Shown here: piece by piece, positions 3,052-46,904 of the stretch
Layout of the letters: each line of letters begins with the position of its first letter
Numbering within the stretch: the stretch's first letter is position 1
NCBI GenBank assembly: GCA_021204045.1
Contig: JAJQAA010000065.1
Span: forward strand, 1 to 64,000
Reading direction: 5' to 3'
Length of the DNA: 64,000 bases
From: Clostridiales bacterium
GTDB lineage: Bacteria; Bacillota; Clostridia; Lachnospirales; Lachnospiraceae
Position numbers and translations under genes: made by a program
Notes under the pieces: model-generated
What the model saw: only the letters and a program-made list of their open reading frames with translations
The model's database searches: none
What the model was told of the DNA's origin: nothing

Positions 3052-5584
3052 TGTTCTCTGCCCTCCACTCCCGCATAATCCGGTAGACCGCATCCATATC
3101 CAGAGAGGCGCGCACCAGATCGGCCAGCTTATCATACTGCCGCTCCCGGTAGGCCTGGCTGCTCTCCTGATCATCGGACTGCGGAAGAACAATCCCCTTT
3201 TTCGCAGCCAATGAGGATAAAAGCGAGTGCGTCAATGCCTCATTGTCAAACAATCCGTGCAGATAGGTACCGAAAACCAGGCCGTCGGCGCGCTCCAGGC
3301 CGTTCGCCTGCTCCGCTCCCTCCGCACACGCTTGACCATCCGCCTGCTTTTTATCATATGGCCCCAAGCCGTCGGTGCGTCCGCTTTCCAGCAAGATGGG
3401 CGCGAAGGCCGTTCCTTCCCGCAAAAGGCGCGTCTCTCCCATATGAATCTCGTAGCCCTGCAGCGCCGTTTCCGCCACTCCGGCAAAGAGCCGGCTTTCC
3501 GAGCACAGCTGCCCCAAAACACGCGCACGATGTTTTTGTTTACAAAATACTGTCTCCGCCGCAAGCAGACCGAGGCCGCGCTCCCGCGCCCCCGCCTCGC
3601 CCTCGACGCCATCCGGGTCATACAATGTCTCACCCAGCATCTGATAACCACCGCAGATACCAATCACCGGGATCTTCTCAGCAGACAGCCGCAGGATTTC
3701 CGCCTCCAGGCCGCACTCCCGCAGCCACCGCAGGTCGGCGAGCGTGTTTTTCGTTCCCGGCAAAATCACAAGATCCGGCATGCCAAGACGGGAAATGCGG
3801 TCCACATAGCGCAGCGAAACGCCTGGTTGCCGCTCCAGATTATTAAAGTCCGTAAAATTGGAAATGTGAGGCAGGCGGATCACAGCGATATCGAGAAACG
3901 CTTTTGCTTCTGATTGCTCTGTGCAGGGCGCTCCATTCTCCTCCGAAGACAGGCGCTGCGCAAGACTGTCCTCGTCATCCAGATCGATCGCTTCCATCGG
4001 CACTACGCCGATCACCGGGATGTGCAGCTTTTCCTCAATCATGCGAAGCCCCGGCTTCAGAATTTCCACATCACCGCGAAATTTATTGATAATCAGCCCA
4101 CACACCCGCGCCCGCTCCTCGGGCGTCATCAGCTCTACCGTGCCATAGAGCGAGGCGAAAACGCCGCCTCGGTCGATATCCCCCACCAGCAGCACCGGGG
4201 CATCGGCGATCTTCGCCATACCCATATTGACAATGTCATTCTCGCGCAGATTGATCTCCGCCGGACTGCCCGCCCCTTCGAGCACAATGACGTCAAACTG
4301 CTGCTCCAGCCGGGAGAACGCCTCCCGGATCACCGGAACAAATTCCGGCTTGCGGCGGTAATATTCCATGGCGTCCATATTTCCGTACACCTCGCCGTTC
4401 ATGATCACCTGGCTGCCCATCGTGCCCGTCGGTTTCAGCAAAATCGGATTCATATCGACCGTCACGTCGATCCCGGCCGCCTCCGCCTGCATGGCCTGCG
4501 CGCGGCCGATCTCCAGCCCGTCCGCCGTGACGAAGGAATTGAGCGCCATGTTCTGTGATTTGAACGGGGCGGCGCGCAGTCCGTCCTGATGAAAAATCCG
4601 GCACAGAGCCGCAACCAGGAAGCTCTTGCCCGCATTGGACATCGTGCCCTGGATCATGAGGCGCGGCGGACGGGCAGATAGATCCTGGCTCGCGCCCATC
4701 TCCGTCCCCATATCTGCGCACACCTCGCATGTCGAACGGATAATATGAACGTTCCCGGCTTCCCGCGAATTCGAATCCACTCGTGGCGTCTTATTAGCAT
4801 TCGGCAATCTAACGCCCGGCAGCGTCGTCCGCGCCGCCCGGTAGCCATGACTGAAACTCGCGTCGTAGAGCTTTGAGGGAGCGAACGTATCGCCGAGAAA
4901 ATTGCCGACCAGCACCAGCGCCGTCCTTGTGATCCCGGCTTCGCGCACGCGCGCGGGCAGGTTCTGCAGCGTTCCCGTCACGGAACGTTCTTCCGGCCAG
5001 GACGCCTTGTAAACCACCGCCGCGGGCGTGTCCGCAGGATAACCCCCCGCAATCAGGCGGGCGCAGACCGTCTCAATCTCGCCGACACTCAGAAAAATCA
5101 CCATTGTCGCCCTGTGAGCCGCAAGCTGTTCCAACTGCTCGCCCTCCGGCACCGGCGTCCGCCCTTCCATACGGGTCAGAATCACGGTCTGGCTGGCCCC
5201 GGGCAGCGTGTATTCTTTCTTCAGGGAAGCCGCCGCCGCGAGGAACGAGCTGACGCCGGGAACGACGTCATAGGGGATCCCCAGCTCGTCCAGCCGGGCC
5301 ATCTGCTCCCGGTGTGCGCCATACACGGACGGATCCCCGGTATGCAGGCGCACGACCCGGCGACCGGAACGCGCCCCGGTGCTGATTACCGCGATCACCT
5401 CATCGAGCGTCATCCCCGCGCTGTTATAAATCTCTGCTTGCGGCCTGGCATGCTCAAGCAGACGCGGATTGACCAGGGATCCGGCGTAAATAATCACATC
5501 CGCTTCCTCGATCATACGCTTTCCCTTCTCGGTGATCAGCTCCGGATCACCGGGACCGGCTCCGATAAAATGTACTGTATGCAT
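3044..5584 (-). CDS. fusion: precorrin-4 C11-methyltransferase (CbiF/CobM) + cobyric acid synthase (CbiP/CobQ)
   Basis: N-term MHTVHFIGAGPGDPELIT...HTGDPSVYGA (CbiF); C-term IQGTMSNAGKSFLVAALCRIF...GICGGYQMLG (CobQ) in one uninterrupted frame. Confidence 0.88.
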   Translation of the reverse strand: MHTVHFIGAGPGDPELITEKGKRMIEEADVIIYAGSLVNPRLLEHARPQAEIYNSAGMTLDEVIAVISTGARSGRRVVRLHTGDPSVYGAHREQMARLDELGIPYDVVPGVSSFLAAAASLKKEYTLPGASQTVILTRMEGRTPVPEGEQLEQLAAHRATMVIFLSVGEIETVCARLIAGGYPADTPAAVVYKASWPEERSVTGTLQNLPARVREAGITRTALVLVGNFLGDTFAPSKLYDASFSHGYRAARTTLPGVRLPNANKTPRVDSNSREAGNVHIIRSTCEVCADMGTEMGASQDLSARPPRLMIQGTMSNAGKSFLVAALCRIFHQDGLRAAPFKSQNMALNSFVTADGLEIGRAQAMQAEAAGIDVTVDMNPILLKPTGTMGSQVIMNGEVYGNMDAMEYYRRKPEFVPVIREAFSRLEQQFDVIVLEGAGSPAEINLRENDIVNMGMAKIADAPVLLVGDIDRGGVFASLYGTVELMTPEERARVCGLIINKFRGDVEILKPGLRMIEEKLHIPVIGVVPMEAIDLDDEDSLAQRLSSEENGAPCTEQSEAKAFLDIAVIRLPHISNFTDFNNLERQPGVSLRYVDRISRLGMPDLVILPGTKNTLADLRWLRECGLEAEILRLSAEKIPVIGICGGYQMLGETLYDPDGVEGEAGARERGLGLLAAETVFCKQKHRARVLGQLCSESRLFAGVAETALQGYEIHMGETRLLREGTAFAPILLESGRTDGLGPYDKKQADGQACAEGAEQANGLERADGLVFGTYLHGLFDNEALTHSLLSSLAAKKGIVLPQSDDQESSQAYRERQYDKLADLVRASLDMDAVYRIMREWRAENNA

Positions 5585-23542: not shown

Positions 23543-24931
23543 TCACGCCTGAGCGCGTTCCACTTCACCCATTTTTCTCATATGGCAGCGAATCACGAGA
23601 TAACAAATGACATGCGCGAGAAACGTGATCGTCCATGAAATCGGGTAAGAATAATACAGCACATCCAGCGTCCGGTTGGCCGCAAACACCGTGAATATCC
23701 AGAATACGCGAAACAGACAGGCTCCGGTCAGGGAGACAAACATCGGCACGATCGAATGCCCCATGCCACGCAGTCCGCCTACCATTGTATCCATGAGACC
23801 GCAGATAAAATAAGGCGCGCATACAATGATCATCCGGCGCATGCCGTATTGGATCACCTCTTCGTCCGGGGAATAAATTCCCAGAAGCTGCCGGCCAAAT
23901 ATGCACGCACCGACGCCGGTCACAACGCCGACGAAGGTCACCATAAGCAGACAGTACACGAGGATTTTTGTCATCCTTCCGTATTTTTTCGCACCGTAAT
24001 TCTGGCTTGTAAAGCTCACAGACGTCTGGTACATGGCATTCATCGCGATATAGACAAAATTTTCAATGCTCGCGGCCGCCGAGCTTCCCGCCATCGCCAC
24101 CGAACCAAACGAATTGATCGACGACTGAATCAGTACGTTGGAAATGGAAAACACCGAGCCCTGCAGACCCGCGGGCAGACCGATCTTTAAAATCGCTTCC
24201 ACCCGGCGCGGCACAAGGCGCAGCCGCCGCAGGTTCAGATGATAGGGCGCATCCGCCACCGCCAGAGAGCGCACCACCAGCGCCGCCGAAACACACTGCG
24301 AGAGAGTCGACGCGAGCGCTACCCCGGCCACATCCAGCTTACAGACAATCACAAAAAACAGATTCAATATCACATTGATGATCCCGGCCGTGACCAGATA
24401 ATAAAGCGGCCGCCTCGTATCGCCCACCGCACGCAGAATCGCACTGCCAAAATTGTACAGCAGTGTCGCTGGCATACCGATAAAATAAACCTGCACATAC
24501 AAAATCGCGAGATAGAGCACGTCCTCCGGCGTACCCATCAGCGTCAGAATCGGCCCGGCCAGGCACCCGCCGACCGCAATCAGAATAAAACCGCCCAGCA
24601 ATGCCAGCAACATCGAGGTGTGGATCGTCTCTTCCAGTTCCTTTTCTTTTTTGGCGCCAAAAAACTGCGCCACCAGCACATTGGTACCGATCGATAACCC
24701 GATAAACAGGTTGATCAGCAGATTAATCAGCGACGTCGTCGAGCCGACCGCCGCCATCGATTCCCTTCCGGCAAACCGTCCGACCACAATAACGTCCGCG
24801 GCGTTGAACAGCAGCTGCAGGATACCGGAAATCATCACCGGCACTGCGAAAACCACCAGTTTCGTAAAGAGCGGCCCGTTGCACATATCCATCTCATAAT
24901 TTCTCGTCCGCGACGAGCGCATATGCATCAT
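23543..24931 (-). CDS. MATE family efflux transporter
   Basis: 12-TM pattern, ADVIVVGRFAGRESMAAVGSTT, VGDTRRPLYY, FGSVAMAGSSAAASIENF. Confidence 0.9.
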   Translation of the reverse strand: MMHMRSSRTRNYEMDMCNGPLFTKLVVFAVPVMISGILQLLFNAADVIVVGRFAGRESMAAVGSTTSLINLLINLFIGLSIGTNVLVAQFFGAKKEKELEETIHTSMLLALLGGFILIAVGGCLAGPILTLMGTPEDVLYLAILYVQVYFIGMPATLLYNFGSAILRAVGDTRRPLYYLVTAGIINVILNLFFVIVCKLDVAGVALASTLSQCVSAALVVRSLAVADAPYHLNLRRLRLVPRRVEAILKIGLPAGLQGSVFSISNVLIQSSINSFGSVAMAGSSAAASIENFVYIAMNAMYQTSVSFTSQNYGAKKYGRMTKILVYCLLMVTFVGVVTGVGACIFGRQLLGIYSPDEEVIQYGMRRMIIVCAPYFICGLMDTMVGGLRGMGHSIVPMFVSLTGACLFRVFWIFTVFAANRTLDVLYYSYPISWTITFLAHVICYLVIRCHMRKMGEVERAQA

Positions 24932-40953: not shown

Positions 40954-43900
40954 TTAGCGCGGCACCTCAACCATCATATAAGCCTCAATCGCGTCGTCCT
41001 CCTGGAGATCGTTGAACTTATCAAAGACCAGGCCGCACTCATAACCGGCCGCGACCTCCTTGGCGTCGTCCTTGAAGCGCTTGAGCGATACCAAAGCGCC
41101 GTCAAACAACTGCTCTCCGGCGCGGCTCACGCGGCAGGAGCAGCCGCGCTGCAGCTTGCCGTCCAGCACATAAGAACCCGCGATTGTACCAACGCCGGAC
41201 GCCTTGAATGTCTGACGCACAACGGCATGGCCGATAACCTGCTCCTCGTAGACCGGATCGAGCATCCCCTTCATGGCCGCCTCGACGTCCTCGATCGCCT
41301 GATAAATGACACGGTACAGGCGCATATCTACTTTTTCCTGCTCGGCGACCGACTTCGCTGTCGCGTCCGGCCGCACGTTGAAGCCAATAATGATCGCGTT
41401 CGACGCGGACGCCAACGAAACATCGGACTCGTTGATCGCGCCGACGCCGCCGTGAATCACCTTGACGACAACCTCCTCGTTGGACAGCTTGAGCAGGCTC
41501 GTCTTTACCGCCTCGACTGAACCCTGCACATCCGCCTTGACGATAATCGGCAGTTCCTTGACGTTGCCCGCCTTGATCTGGCTGAACAGATCGTCCAGCG
41601 ACAGCTTGGATTTCGTCTCCTCGAGCAGACGGTTCTTGCCCTCTGCGATAAAGGTCTCGGCGTAGCTTCTCGCTTCCTTCTCGTTTTCTACAGCGATGAT
41701 CACATCGCCGGCGCCCGGCACATCGTTCAGGCCAAGTACCTCGACCGGCGTCGACGGTCCGGCCTCCTTCACACGGCGGCCCTTGTCGTCCATCATCGCG
41801 CGTACCTTACCATAACATGCTCCGACCGTGACATTATCACCGACATGCAGCGTACCCTTCTGGACGAGGATCGTTGCCACCGGGCCCTTGCCCTTGTCAA
41901 GCTCCGCCTCGATCACCAGGCCGCGGCAGCGGCGGTTCGGATTGGCCTTCAGCTCCTTGACCTCCGCAGTCAGCAGGATCATCTCCAGCAGCTCCGGAAT
42001 GCCTTCCTTCGTGTGCGCGGACACCGGAACAAAAATCGTACTGCCGCCCCAGTCTTCGGGAACCAGCTCATACTCGGTCAGCTCCTGCTTCACGCGCTCC
42101 ACATTCGCACTCGGTTTATCAATCTTGTTGATCGCGACGATAATCTCCACCCCGGCCGCCTTGGCGTGGTTGATGGCCTCGATCGTCTGCGGCATCACGC
42201 CGTCATCCGCCGCAACAACGAGAATCGCGATATCCGTAGACTGTGCGCCGCGCATACGCATGGCCGTGAACGCCTCATGGCCCGGCGTATCGAGGAAGGT
42301 GATTTTCTGTCCATTGATTTCCACCGTATAAGCGCCGATGTGCTGGGTAATGCCGCCCGCTTCGTGCGAGGTCACGTTCGTGGAACGGATCGCGTCGAGC
42401 AGCGACGTCTTACCATGATCGACATGACCCATGACGCAGACCACCGGCGGTCTCGGGATCATGTCGTTCTCGTCCTCTTCCTCTTCCTTAAGAAGCTCGG
42501 CGATCACATCGACCTTCTCCTCCTTCTCACAGAGGATCTCATATTCCATGGCAATCTCCTCCGCCTTCTCAAAATCGATATCGGAGTTCATCGTCACAAT
42601 CTGTCCCTGCAGGAACAGCTTCTTGATAATCGCGGAGGGCTGCAGCTTCATCTTGTCAGCCAGCTCCTTGATCGTCAGAGTCTCCGGGATCGTGATCACC
42701 TTGATCGTCTCCTCGGCTTTCTGCTCAGACTGCTTCTGCGGCATGATGAACGGATGCTTCGACACCTTGCCGCCCTTATTTCTCGGACCGTCCTCGTTGC
42801 TGTTGCGTTTATTGTAACGGTCGTTTTTATAGTTATTGTTGTTGCTCTTGCGGTTGCTCGTCGGCTTGGCCTGCAGCTGCGTATCAAAGCTCTTGGAGCC
42901 GCCGTCTCTCTGACCAGGACGGCTTCCTCCGCGCCCGGCGCCGAAACCGCCGCCCTGGCCGGTCCGGTTTCCAAAACCGCCCGGTCTTCCCTGGCCGCTC
43001 TGGCCACTCCGGTTCCCATAGCTGCCCTGGCCACTCTGGCCGCTCCGGTTCCCATAGCTGCCCTGGCCACCCTGGCCGGTCCGGTTCCCGTAGCCTCCCT
43101 GACCACTCTGGCCGCCACGATTCCCGTAGCTACCCTGACCGCCCTGGCCGCCGCGGTTCCCGTAGCTGCCCTGGCCGCCGCGATTCCCGTAGCTTCCCTG
43201 GCCACCTTGACCACTACGGTTCTCATAGCTTCCCTGACCGCCCTGACCACTGCGGTTCCCGTAGCTTCCCTGACCGCTCTGGTCGCTTCGATTTCCGTAG
43301 TTGCCCTGACTGCCCTGGCCGCTGCGATTTCCGTAGCTTCCCTGGCCACTCTGGCCGCTTCGATTTCCGTAGCTTCCCTGACCACTCTGGCCACTGCGAT
43401 TTCCGTAGCTTCCCTGGCCGCTCCGGTTCCCGTAGCTGCCCTGGCTCTGGCCATTCCGGTCGCGATTATCCCGGTATGGCTGCCCCTGGGTACGATCCGC
43501 GCCCTGCGGCCGATTCAGGGAAGACTGCTGAGAACGCTGTGTTTCCGACGATGATGCTACCGCACGCGTGCTTCCCTGCGCCGCAGTTTCCGGGCGCGCA
43601 CTTCCCTGTACGGATACAGCCGGATTTGCAGTTCCCTGCGTCGGTGCAGCCGGACGTGCACTTTCCTGTGCCGGTGCCACCGGACGTGCAACTCCCTGTG
43701 TCGGTGCCGTCGGACGTACGCTTCCCTGCGCCGCTGTCGCCGGACGTACACTTCCCTGTCCCGCGTTTGCCGGACGCGCACTTCCCTGCGCCGCTGTTCC
43801 GATCCCGCCTGCCTGCGGGCGAACTCCCTGCTGTCCCTGCAGACGACTCTGGCCCTGCGGGCGTTGCGATCGCTGCTGAGAATTTTGCGGACGGTACACA

Positions 43901-44328
43901 GCTACCATCTTCTTCTTCGGCGCCGTACCCGCGGCGGCACCATTCCCCGTTGCTCCGCTGCTCGGCGCGGCCGACGCGGATGCCGCCGATGTGGGTGCTG
44001 CAGACGCAGCCGGACGGCTGCCTGTACCTGCCTGCGCAGTCGCCGCCGCACGCGCTGTGCCGGACGACTGCGTGGACGATCCCGTCTGAATGGAAGATGC
44101 CGGGCGTACTGCTCCGGATGCCGAAGCAGAAACTCCCGCTGATACCGGCCGCGCCGCCGGTTTTACCGCTCCCGCTCCGCTAAGCGTCCGCTTCACAATG
44201 CCGATCTGTTCTGTGCTGATGCTCGACGAATGGGTCTTCACATCCTGATTCTGTTTCTGTAATATATCCAAAATTTCTTTACTGGTTTTTCCCAGCTCCT
44301 TCGCAAGCTCATTTACTCTCATACTCAC
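40954..44328 (-). CDS. infB: translation initiation factor IF-2 with a long repeat-rich N-terminal region
   Basis: [38 protein letters not shown]-terminal GQGSYGNRS repeats. Confidence 0.97.
42980..43450 (-). repeat. coding repeat array in infB (SYGNRSGQ(S/G)GQG, about 13 copies)
   Basis: 27/36-bp periodic DNA visible directly; residues about 295-450. Confidence 0.9.
43564..43800 (-). repeat. second coding repeat array in infB ([10 protein letters not shown]-like, about 8 copies)
   Basis: Roughly 30-bp period: [40 protein letters not shown]... Confidence 0.85.
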
Positions 44329-44949: not shown

Positions 44950-46122
44950 TTACTGCATACTGTCCTGCTCATCGTAATTTTCCGGAAGGTAGTCATTTTC
45001 TGACGCCGAAATTTCAAAATCTGCCTGGAAATCATCATACACGCCTTCCTCCTGGTAATCGATTCCCATCTGCTCAAACAGACCCATCTCGCGCGCCTGC
45101 GTCTCACTCTTAATATCAATCTTATAACCGGTCAGCTTCGCGGCCAGACGGGCATTCTGGCCCTCCTTGCCGATCGCCAGCGAAAGCTGATAATCGGGTA
45201 CGATCACCTGTGCCTCGCGGCTCTCCTCATCCGCGACCACGCAGATCACCTTGGCCGGGCTTAACGCGTTCTCAATCAGGAACGCTGCGTTCTCATTCCA
45301 TGTAATGATATCAATCTTCTCTCCACGGAGTTCATTGACAACCGCATTCACACGCGCGCCATTCATACCCACGCACGCGCCGACCGGATCGACGTTCGGA
45401 TCATTGGAACTGACCGCCATCTTGGTGCGGGAACCGGCTTCCCTGGCGATCGCCCGGATCTCCACGGTACCGTCCCGGACCTCCGTCACTTCCTCCTCAA
45501 ACAGCCGCTTGACCAGCTCCGGGTGCGTACGCGACACGGAAATGCGCGGTCCCTTCGGGGTATCCTTGACTTCGAGCACAAACACCTTGATGCGCTCGGT
45601 CGGCCGGAAATTCTCTCCCTTTACCTGCTCCGCCTCGTTGAGGATCGCGTCCGCGCGGCCGAGATTGATGCTGATATTGCGTCCGAAATAACGCTGCACC
45701 ACGCCGGTAACCACATCCCGCTCCTTGCGGTACCATTCGTTGAACTGCATGCTCCGCTCCTCTTCGCGGATCTTCTGCAGGATAACGTTTTTCGCGTTCT
45801 GCGTGGCGATACGGCCGAACGATTTCGATTCGATCGGAACACGGACAATATCGCCGATCTCATACTTGGAATCTTTCCCTCTGGCTTCCTCCAGGCTGAT
45901 CTGCAGAGCCGGATCTTCAACCTCCTCAACGACCTCGCGCTCCGCGTAGACGGAAAAGTCGCCGGTATCCGGGTCGATGTTTACCCGCACATTGTCCGAC
46001 TTGCCGAAATGGTTCTTGCAGGCGGTCAGCAGCGAATTTTCAATCGCTTCGATCAGCGTCGATTTGCTGATGTTTTTCTCCTTCTCCAGAAGCTCCAGCG
46101 CCTCGATCAGTTCCTTATTCAT
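44950..46122 (-). CDS. nusA: transcription termination/antitermination factor NusA
   Basis: N-term MNKELIEALELLEKEKNISKSTLIEAIENSL; S1/KH: DPVGACVGMNGARVNAVVNELRGEKIDI. Confidence 0.96.
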   Translation of the reverse strand: MNKELIEALELLEKEKNISKSTLIEAIENSLLTACKNHFGKSDNVRVNIDPDTGDFSVYAEREVVEEVEDPALQISLEEARGKDSKYEIGDIVRVPIESKSFGRIATQNAKNVILQKIREEERSMQFNEWYRKERDVVTGVVQRYFGRNISINLGRADAILNEAEQVKGENFRPTERIKVFVLEVKDTPKGPRISVSRTHPELVKRLFEEEVTEVRDGTVEIRAIAREAGSRTKMAVSSNDPNVDPVGACVGMNGARVNAVVNELRGEKIDIITWNENAAFLIENALSPAKVICVVADEESREAQVIVPDYQLSLAIGKEGQNARLAAKLTGYKIDIKSETQAREMGLFEQMGIDYQEEGVYDDFQADFEISASENDYLPENYDEQDSMQ

Positions 46123-46148: not shown

Positions 46149-46616
46149 TTAAAAATCGAACGCCAGCCGGATCAGAGCGATCTGGGCGCGGGAAAACTTA
46201 CGCTCACTCCCGTCCTCAAGCTCAATCGTCACATCCGCCGCATCGTAGGCCTTCAGAATACCGGTGTACTCTCTGGAGCCGTCCTGCGGCGCATAAAGAC
46301 GTATTTTGACTTCATCGCCGAGACTGCGCGCAAAATCCTTATCCTTTTTAAGCGGTCGGCCAAGCCCGGGTGAGCTGACTTCCATGATATAGCTCTCCTC
46401 GATAAAATCCTCCGCGTCAAGCCAATCGCTGAATTGCCGGCTGATCATCTCGCAGTCGTCCACCGTGATCCCGCCCGCTTTATCAATGTAAGCGCGCAGG
46501 TACCAGCTTCCGCCTTCTTTTACATATTCTACGTCAACCAGCTCAAAACCATGTTTTTCCATCAGCGGCAGCAGGAACTGCTCCGCTCTTGTCTCGTAGG
46601 TTTCTTTCCTTGTCAT
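46149..46616 (-). CDS. rimP: ribosome maturation factor RimP
   Basis: GFELVDVEYVKEGGSWYLRAYIDKAGGITVDDCEMISRQFSDWLD. Confidence 0.95.
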   Translation of the reverse strand: MTRKETYETRAEQFLLPLMEKHGFELVDVEYVKEGGSWYLRAYIDKAGGITVDDCEMISRQFSDWLDAEDFIEESYIMEVSSPGLGRPLKKDKDFARSLGDEVKIRLYAPQDGSREYTGILKAYDAADVTIELEDGSERKFSRAQIALIRLAFDF

Positions 46617-46654
46617 TTTCTCACCTCGATTCCTTTATACAAAAGACTGACTCC

Positions 46655-46808
46655 TTACGATTTGCGGCTGCCGCCTTCATTCGCAATCTTCGATTGCTCA
46701 TGAACGACGGGTGACTGCTTCGCAGTCACTCGGGAAACACCGGAACTGGCGCTTACGAGCAAGCTCGACGCGGCAGTTCCGGTGTTTCCCGCCAGCCGCA
46801 AATCGTAA
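46655..46808 (-). other. cloverleaf-like nested inverted-repeat element in the rimP-nusA-infB leader
   Basis: Outer arms TTACGATTTGCGGCTG/CAGCCGCAAATCGTAA (16/16); inner arms CGGGAAACACCGGAACTG/CAGTTCCGGTGTTTCCCG (18/18); plus two further hairpins. Confidence 0.85.
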
Positions 46809-46822
46809 CCCTATACCGCAAA

Positions 46823-46848
46823 TAAGAGTGGCCGTCAAGCCACTCTTA
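46823..46848. other. hairpin (possible terminator or attenuator)
   Basis: TAAGAGTGGC-CGTCAA-GCCACTCTTA. Confidence 0.6.
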
Positions 46849-46875
46849 ATCGTCAACCTTTTTGTTACTGTTGAA

Positions 46876-46904
46876 ATTATACCACCCTGTGCGGGGAAAT
46901 GCAA
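46876..46904 (-). promoter_or_regulatory. sigmaA-type promoter of the rimP-nusA-infB operon
   Basis: Minus strand TTGCAT-17 nt-TATAAT. Confidence 0.6.

Follow-up and report, generated by a model that had tools for sequence, protein, structure and literature searches.

Bacterial MITEs and small palindromic repeats, among them the Correia/NEMIS, ERIC, RUP and BOX elements, are short, non-coding, intergenic sequences that have terminal inverted repeats and give rise to cotranscribed hairpins. The target duplication of Correia elements is TA, and target duplications of 7-8 bp are not expected from transposition by Y1 enzymes. In the Clostridia, a further system to be compared is Clostridiales-1 RNA (Rfam RF01699; Weinberg et al. 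2010, PMC2864571). The leader upstream of rimP also has a described structure, the rimP-leader, which Naville and Gautheret (2010; PMC2965389) found to be the most widespread of the attenuators that they surveyed, and in Bacillus subtilis NusA is reported to regulate its own expression via attenuation in its own 5' leader (PMC12288461).

Architecture of the palindromic element

The window is a stretch of 64,000 nucleotides from the genome of a Clostridiales bacterium (Lachnospiraceae) that is 99% complete. It carries a minus-strand operon with the open reading frames of rimP (46149-46616; the first gene, also identified by its orthologues), nusA (44950-46122) and infB (40954-44328). Upstream of rimP, the predicted fold, the inverted repeats and a covariance model, R1, delimited a palindromic element at 46654-46809 on the minus strand. 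Its 5' outer arm, GTTACGATTTGCGGCTG (46793-46809), and its 3' outer arm, CAGCCGCAAATCGTAAG (46654-46670), constitute a terminal inverted repeat; the family motif at the ends is GTTAC...GTAAC, with the outermost pair being a G/G mismatch in this copy. Script analysis confirmed that 46655-46670 and 46793-46808 are exact reverse complements, the perfect 16-bp outer arms of the original prediction, and the same was true of 46731-46748/46774-46791 and 46711-46718/46722-46729. The 8-mer CCGCAAAT was found twice, once in the outer arm (46796-46803) and once outside the element, in the flank next to the attenuator hairpin described below (46816-46823); it was absent from that flank in relatives.

The minus-strand RNA of 46640-46870 had a predicted folding energy of -129.4 kcal/mol, compared to -72.6 (sd 4.5) for 200 dinucleotide shuffles, none of which equalled it (z = -12.7). 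In the predicted fold the outer stem closes a cloverleaf of three arms, consistent with the three enclosed hairpins noted previously. Arm a (46671-46710) is a hairpin with a 2x2 internal loop, CAT-GA-GCAA...TTGC-GA-ATG, and arm b (46711-46729) is an 8-bp hairpin, GTGACTGC-GAA-GCAGTCAC; as had been proposed, the triloop of both is GAA when read on the minus strand. Arm c (46731-46791) has the perfect 18-bp stem that was originally reported and a conserved tip of the form NNN-GU-NNNN-loop-NNNN-UAA-NNN. The earlier description of this tip had to be amended; it consists, in order, of a C.C mismatch topped by a CGC/GCG stem, a GU/UAA internal loop and a CGAG/CUCG stem with a CUUG loop.

The rimP leader in related genomes

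Searches of 24 genomes of the same genus, which included the window genome and two without a match, provided 21 other rimP loci. A promoter block, a GATAAC-type box, a small hairpin of the form GAGTGG...CCACTC and a GAGGTGA-type ribosome site were common to all of these loci. The promoter on the minus strand, TTGCAT-N17-TATAAT (46876-46904), lies in the block conserved among the aligned leaders, in agreement with its earlier assignment; it was not among the matches of a consensus promoter scanner. The hairpin, at 46826-46845 on the minus strand, was present at 22 of 22 rimP loci and lies outside the element. It is the rimP-leader attenuator, a small structure that is distinct from the cloverleaf and adjoins it in the same leader, and it is the sole conserved leader structure, which the original prediction had overlooked. 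The U-run behind it (46813-46826) was worn down, with TTATTTGCGG in the window compared to TTACTTTTTGG or similar in the 21 relatives, and attenuation may therefore be weaker in the window species.

The cloverleaf lies between the attenuator hairpin and the ribosome site of rimP, and it was missing at all 21 of the other rimP loci, as determined by alignment by eye and with the covariance model. The distance from the hairpin to the ATG was 209 nt in the window and 33-143 nt at the other loci. These results bear on the proposal that the cloverleaf acts as a regulatory RNA in the leader and has been conserved because it controls the rimP-nusA-infB operon. It maps to the predicted leader, behind a conserved promoter, and its fold is far better than that of shuffled sequences, which is compatible with such a role; however, it was absent from every orthologous site, its relatives were found at unrelated genes and the leader structure that is conserved is another hairpin, already published. 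The suggestion of an undescribed structured leader, for which conservation or covariation upstream of rimP was to be sought, is thus largely refuted, and we regard a leader-RNA role as extremely improbable. The identification of the cloverleaf with rimP-leader was also rejected, since the G-rich/C-rich terminator hairpin before rimP that is conserved between species is the one at 46826-46845.

Relatives in the same genome

BLAST and end-motif searches of the window genome identified at least three damaged copies of the element and six end fragments. Metagenome assemblies are among the genomes used in this study. The partly deleted copies were on contig C64 (about 5180-5291), which retains the arm c tip with covarying stems, and on contig C61 at 21969 and at 24302-24383; the end fragments were at C23:31806, C23:98743, C28:5280, C29:16405, C35:2484 and C57:23519. 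The copy at C61:24302-24383 is located upstream of a clpB-like gene that has an operator we read as CIRCE-like. An 8-bp direct repeat, GCGTTATA, identical on both sides, abuts the ends of this copy and was matched in none of 500 shuffles. The deletion in this copy ends at TTGC; because the complete element contains that word twice, the deletion may have arisen by slippage across the fold. When genomes of the same family were searched with either the window copy or the C61 copy as query, matches were obtained in the window genome only. No autonomous partner sharing the ends was found among the end-motif pattern matches in that genome.

A multi-copy family in a second genus

An end-motif search of 392 genomes of the class yielded three full-length homologues in the genome G220, which belongs to a different genus of the family; each of the three folded separately into a cloverleaf with an identical arm order. 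The dispersed family therefore spans two genera, and the copies that the original prediction had proposed to look for in this and related genomes do exist. At the sensitivities used, clear homologues were confined to this one other genome among 397 genomes of the family and 392 of the class. Three further end-motif matches from other genomes of the class (L145, L146 and L150) were rejected, their folds being unlike such an element. Phage and plasmid collections gave no match, and viral contigs gave six end-motif matches and none to a 23-base segment from the tip of arm c.

The outer arm GTTACGATTTGCGGCTG is homologous to GTTACTATTCACGGCC in the G220 copies, with compensatory changes. The arm a motif, CAT-nn-GCAA / TTGC-nn-ATG, was retained, as was the GAA triloop of arm b, in TTGACTGA-GAA-TCAGTCAC and CCTGT-GAA-GCAGG. 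The tip of arm c was common to the G220 copies and the C64 copy; the stem next to its GU/UAA loop varied in step, being CGC/GCG in the window and AUC/GAU in G220. In an alignment of five sequences with 60 pairs, 90.6% were paired and both sides had changed in 21 of the 60. None of 500 shuffles reached this value and slid controls gave at most 6; because the structure was derived from the same sequences, however, the comparison with slid controls is somewhat biased in its favour.

The R1 model was built from this alignment. It matched the window copy over 46654-46809 on the minus strand with 137 bits, this copy being one of its seed sequences, and a search of 637 kb of G220 outside the three seed places revealed four further strong matches. 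Extrapolation from this sample, full-length copies included, gave a copy number of approximately 18 per genome. At one of these four (L172) a 7-bp direct repeat, AATTTTT, abuts the ends (1 of 500 shuffles). Target duplications were thus seen at two copies only (8 bp and 7 bp), and at neither the window copy nor most of the others.

The original prediction had named a mobile interspersed palindromic element of the REP/MITE type. The mobile, MITE-like part of this description was upheld by the dispersed copies, the 21 empty sites, the two relatives with target duplications and the multi-copy family in G220. The REP part was not. A REP-like palindrome mobilised by a Y1 (RAYT) transposase would, like this element, be short, palindromic and dispersed; however, no match to Y1_Tnp (PF01797) was found in the window genome, the number of Y1 genes in the genus did not track how many of the similar RF01699 repeats a genome carries, and the duplications at two relatives were of 7-8 bp. 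A Y1/RAYT route is unlikely, and we consider the chance that it applies here to be very small. Since no Y1 transposase was found in the genome, a MITE-like label fits better.

Relationship to Clostridiales-1 RNA

Apart from RF01699, the Rfam scan matches, rliD and PssrA, were at chance level. The window copy scored 51.7 bits against the RF01699 cut-off of 48, on the minus strand and with the whole model matched, and nine other matches over the cut-off were found in the same genome. RF01699 copies matched R1 weakly, on the same strand every time. Clostridiales-1 also resembles the window element in its closed outer stem, its three hairpin arms, its dispersal in the same genus and the shared words GCTTGC, at the tip, and TGAGCAA...TTGCGAAT. 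In contrast, the arm sequences differ, as do the termini (GTTAC... in the window family, TGATACC/TGAAAGT... in RF01699), and RF01699 failed to detect the true homologues of the window element; three full-length homologues (L149, L152 and L154) had no RF01699 match at E<=1. The window copy was itself missed by fast filters, with which a scan of the whole window found nothing. Because its closest full-length relatives have no RF01699 match, the element was not filed under this family. Distant kinship is plausible; membership of this family, which Rfam annotates as an sRNA gene, is not established and we consider it doubtful.

RF01699 was present in 0-47 copies per genome in the genus, and one genome (G019) had a copy between rimP and nusA. 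Therefore, although Rfam lists it as an sRNA gene, RF01699 has the character of a dispersed repeat within the genus. Among the copies in L001-L011 and L117-L144, several also had similar flanks, with TTTACTA before and TGCGTGG after, for example, and the mobile unit may thus be longer than the Rfam model. A third type of cloverleaf was observed at L009:1494-1638 (C37:5420-5549 of the window genome), with GGACGGC/GCCGTCC ends and the GU/UAA tip retained; it scored with both models (51 bits with RF01699, 45 bits with R1) and is a possible link between RF01699 and the window family.

An exact match to the 23-base tip of arm c, CGCGTCGAGCTTGCTCGTAAGCG, was found in 21 stretches (L083-L103) of other Clostridia genomes, of the Oscillospiraceae and Lachnospiraceae (for example L096:3917-4235, L098:2446-2660, L099:2141-2473 and L088:5772-6292). 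It lay 100-160 nt downstream of a same-strand tRNA gene in 11 of the 21 and about 130 nt downstream of tmRNA in one. A segment resembling an inverted copy of the 3' end of the tRNA was located nearby downstream in 6 of 11 tested (P<0.02, as measured by shuffling), and L083 and L085 contained tandem 225-bp units. Tentatively, the window element, Clostridiales-1 and these tRNA-tail elements might form one superfamily of mobile cloverleaf palindromes, recognised as a folded single strand via the conserved GU/UAA-tipped hairpin, an idea to which we give limited credence.

Discussion

The reading that we favour, and hold to be very probable, regards 46654-46809 as a small, non-coding, MITE-like mobile element (about 155-200 bp), present here at full length and inserted behind the rimP attenuator. 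Terminal inverted repeats of the GTTACTATTCACGGCC type, multiple dispersed copies (the fragments in the same genome and the G220 copies) and empty orthologous sites at 21 of 21 rimP loci were all observed. Together with the two short duplications, they point to mobilisation by a DDE-type transposase, which would act in trans and make target duplications of 7-8 bp, in contrast to the TA of Correia elements. The absence of an autonomous partner among the pattern matches in the same genome, the small number of target duplications and the restriction of clear homologues to one other genome count against a mobile element. The covariation and the conserved loops could alternatively signify a function of the transcribed RNA.

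If the element is mobile, it would have inserted behind the attenuator hairpin in the lineage of the window species, and the transcript would now carry it, as a passive and very stable duplex, between the attenuator and the ribosome site, where it may serve as an RNase III substrate. Since the promoter, the hairpin and the ribosome site are intact, the simplest reading is that the cloverleaf is a passenger in the rimP leader. The element family is new but of a known kind, a mobile palindromic repeat, and it differs from MITEs and other palindromic repeats in its three-armed cloverleaf, its conserved loop motifs and its covariation. Because the arms covary while the loop motifs are fixed, the conserved entity is probably a folded single strand, either of DNA during transposition or of RNA. 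A striking fold in the leader of a key operon is most likely a passenger rather than a switch, and because its arms covary around fixed loops, the idea that a transposase or another protein reads the folded strand is open to test.
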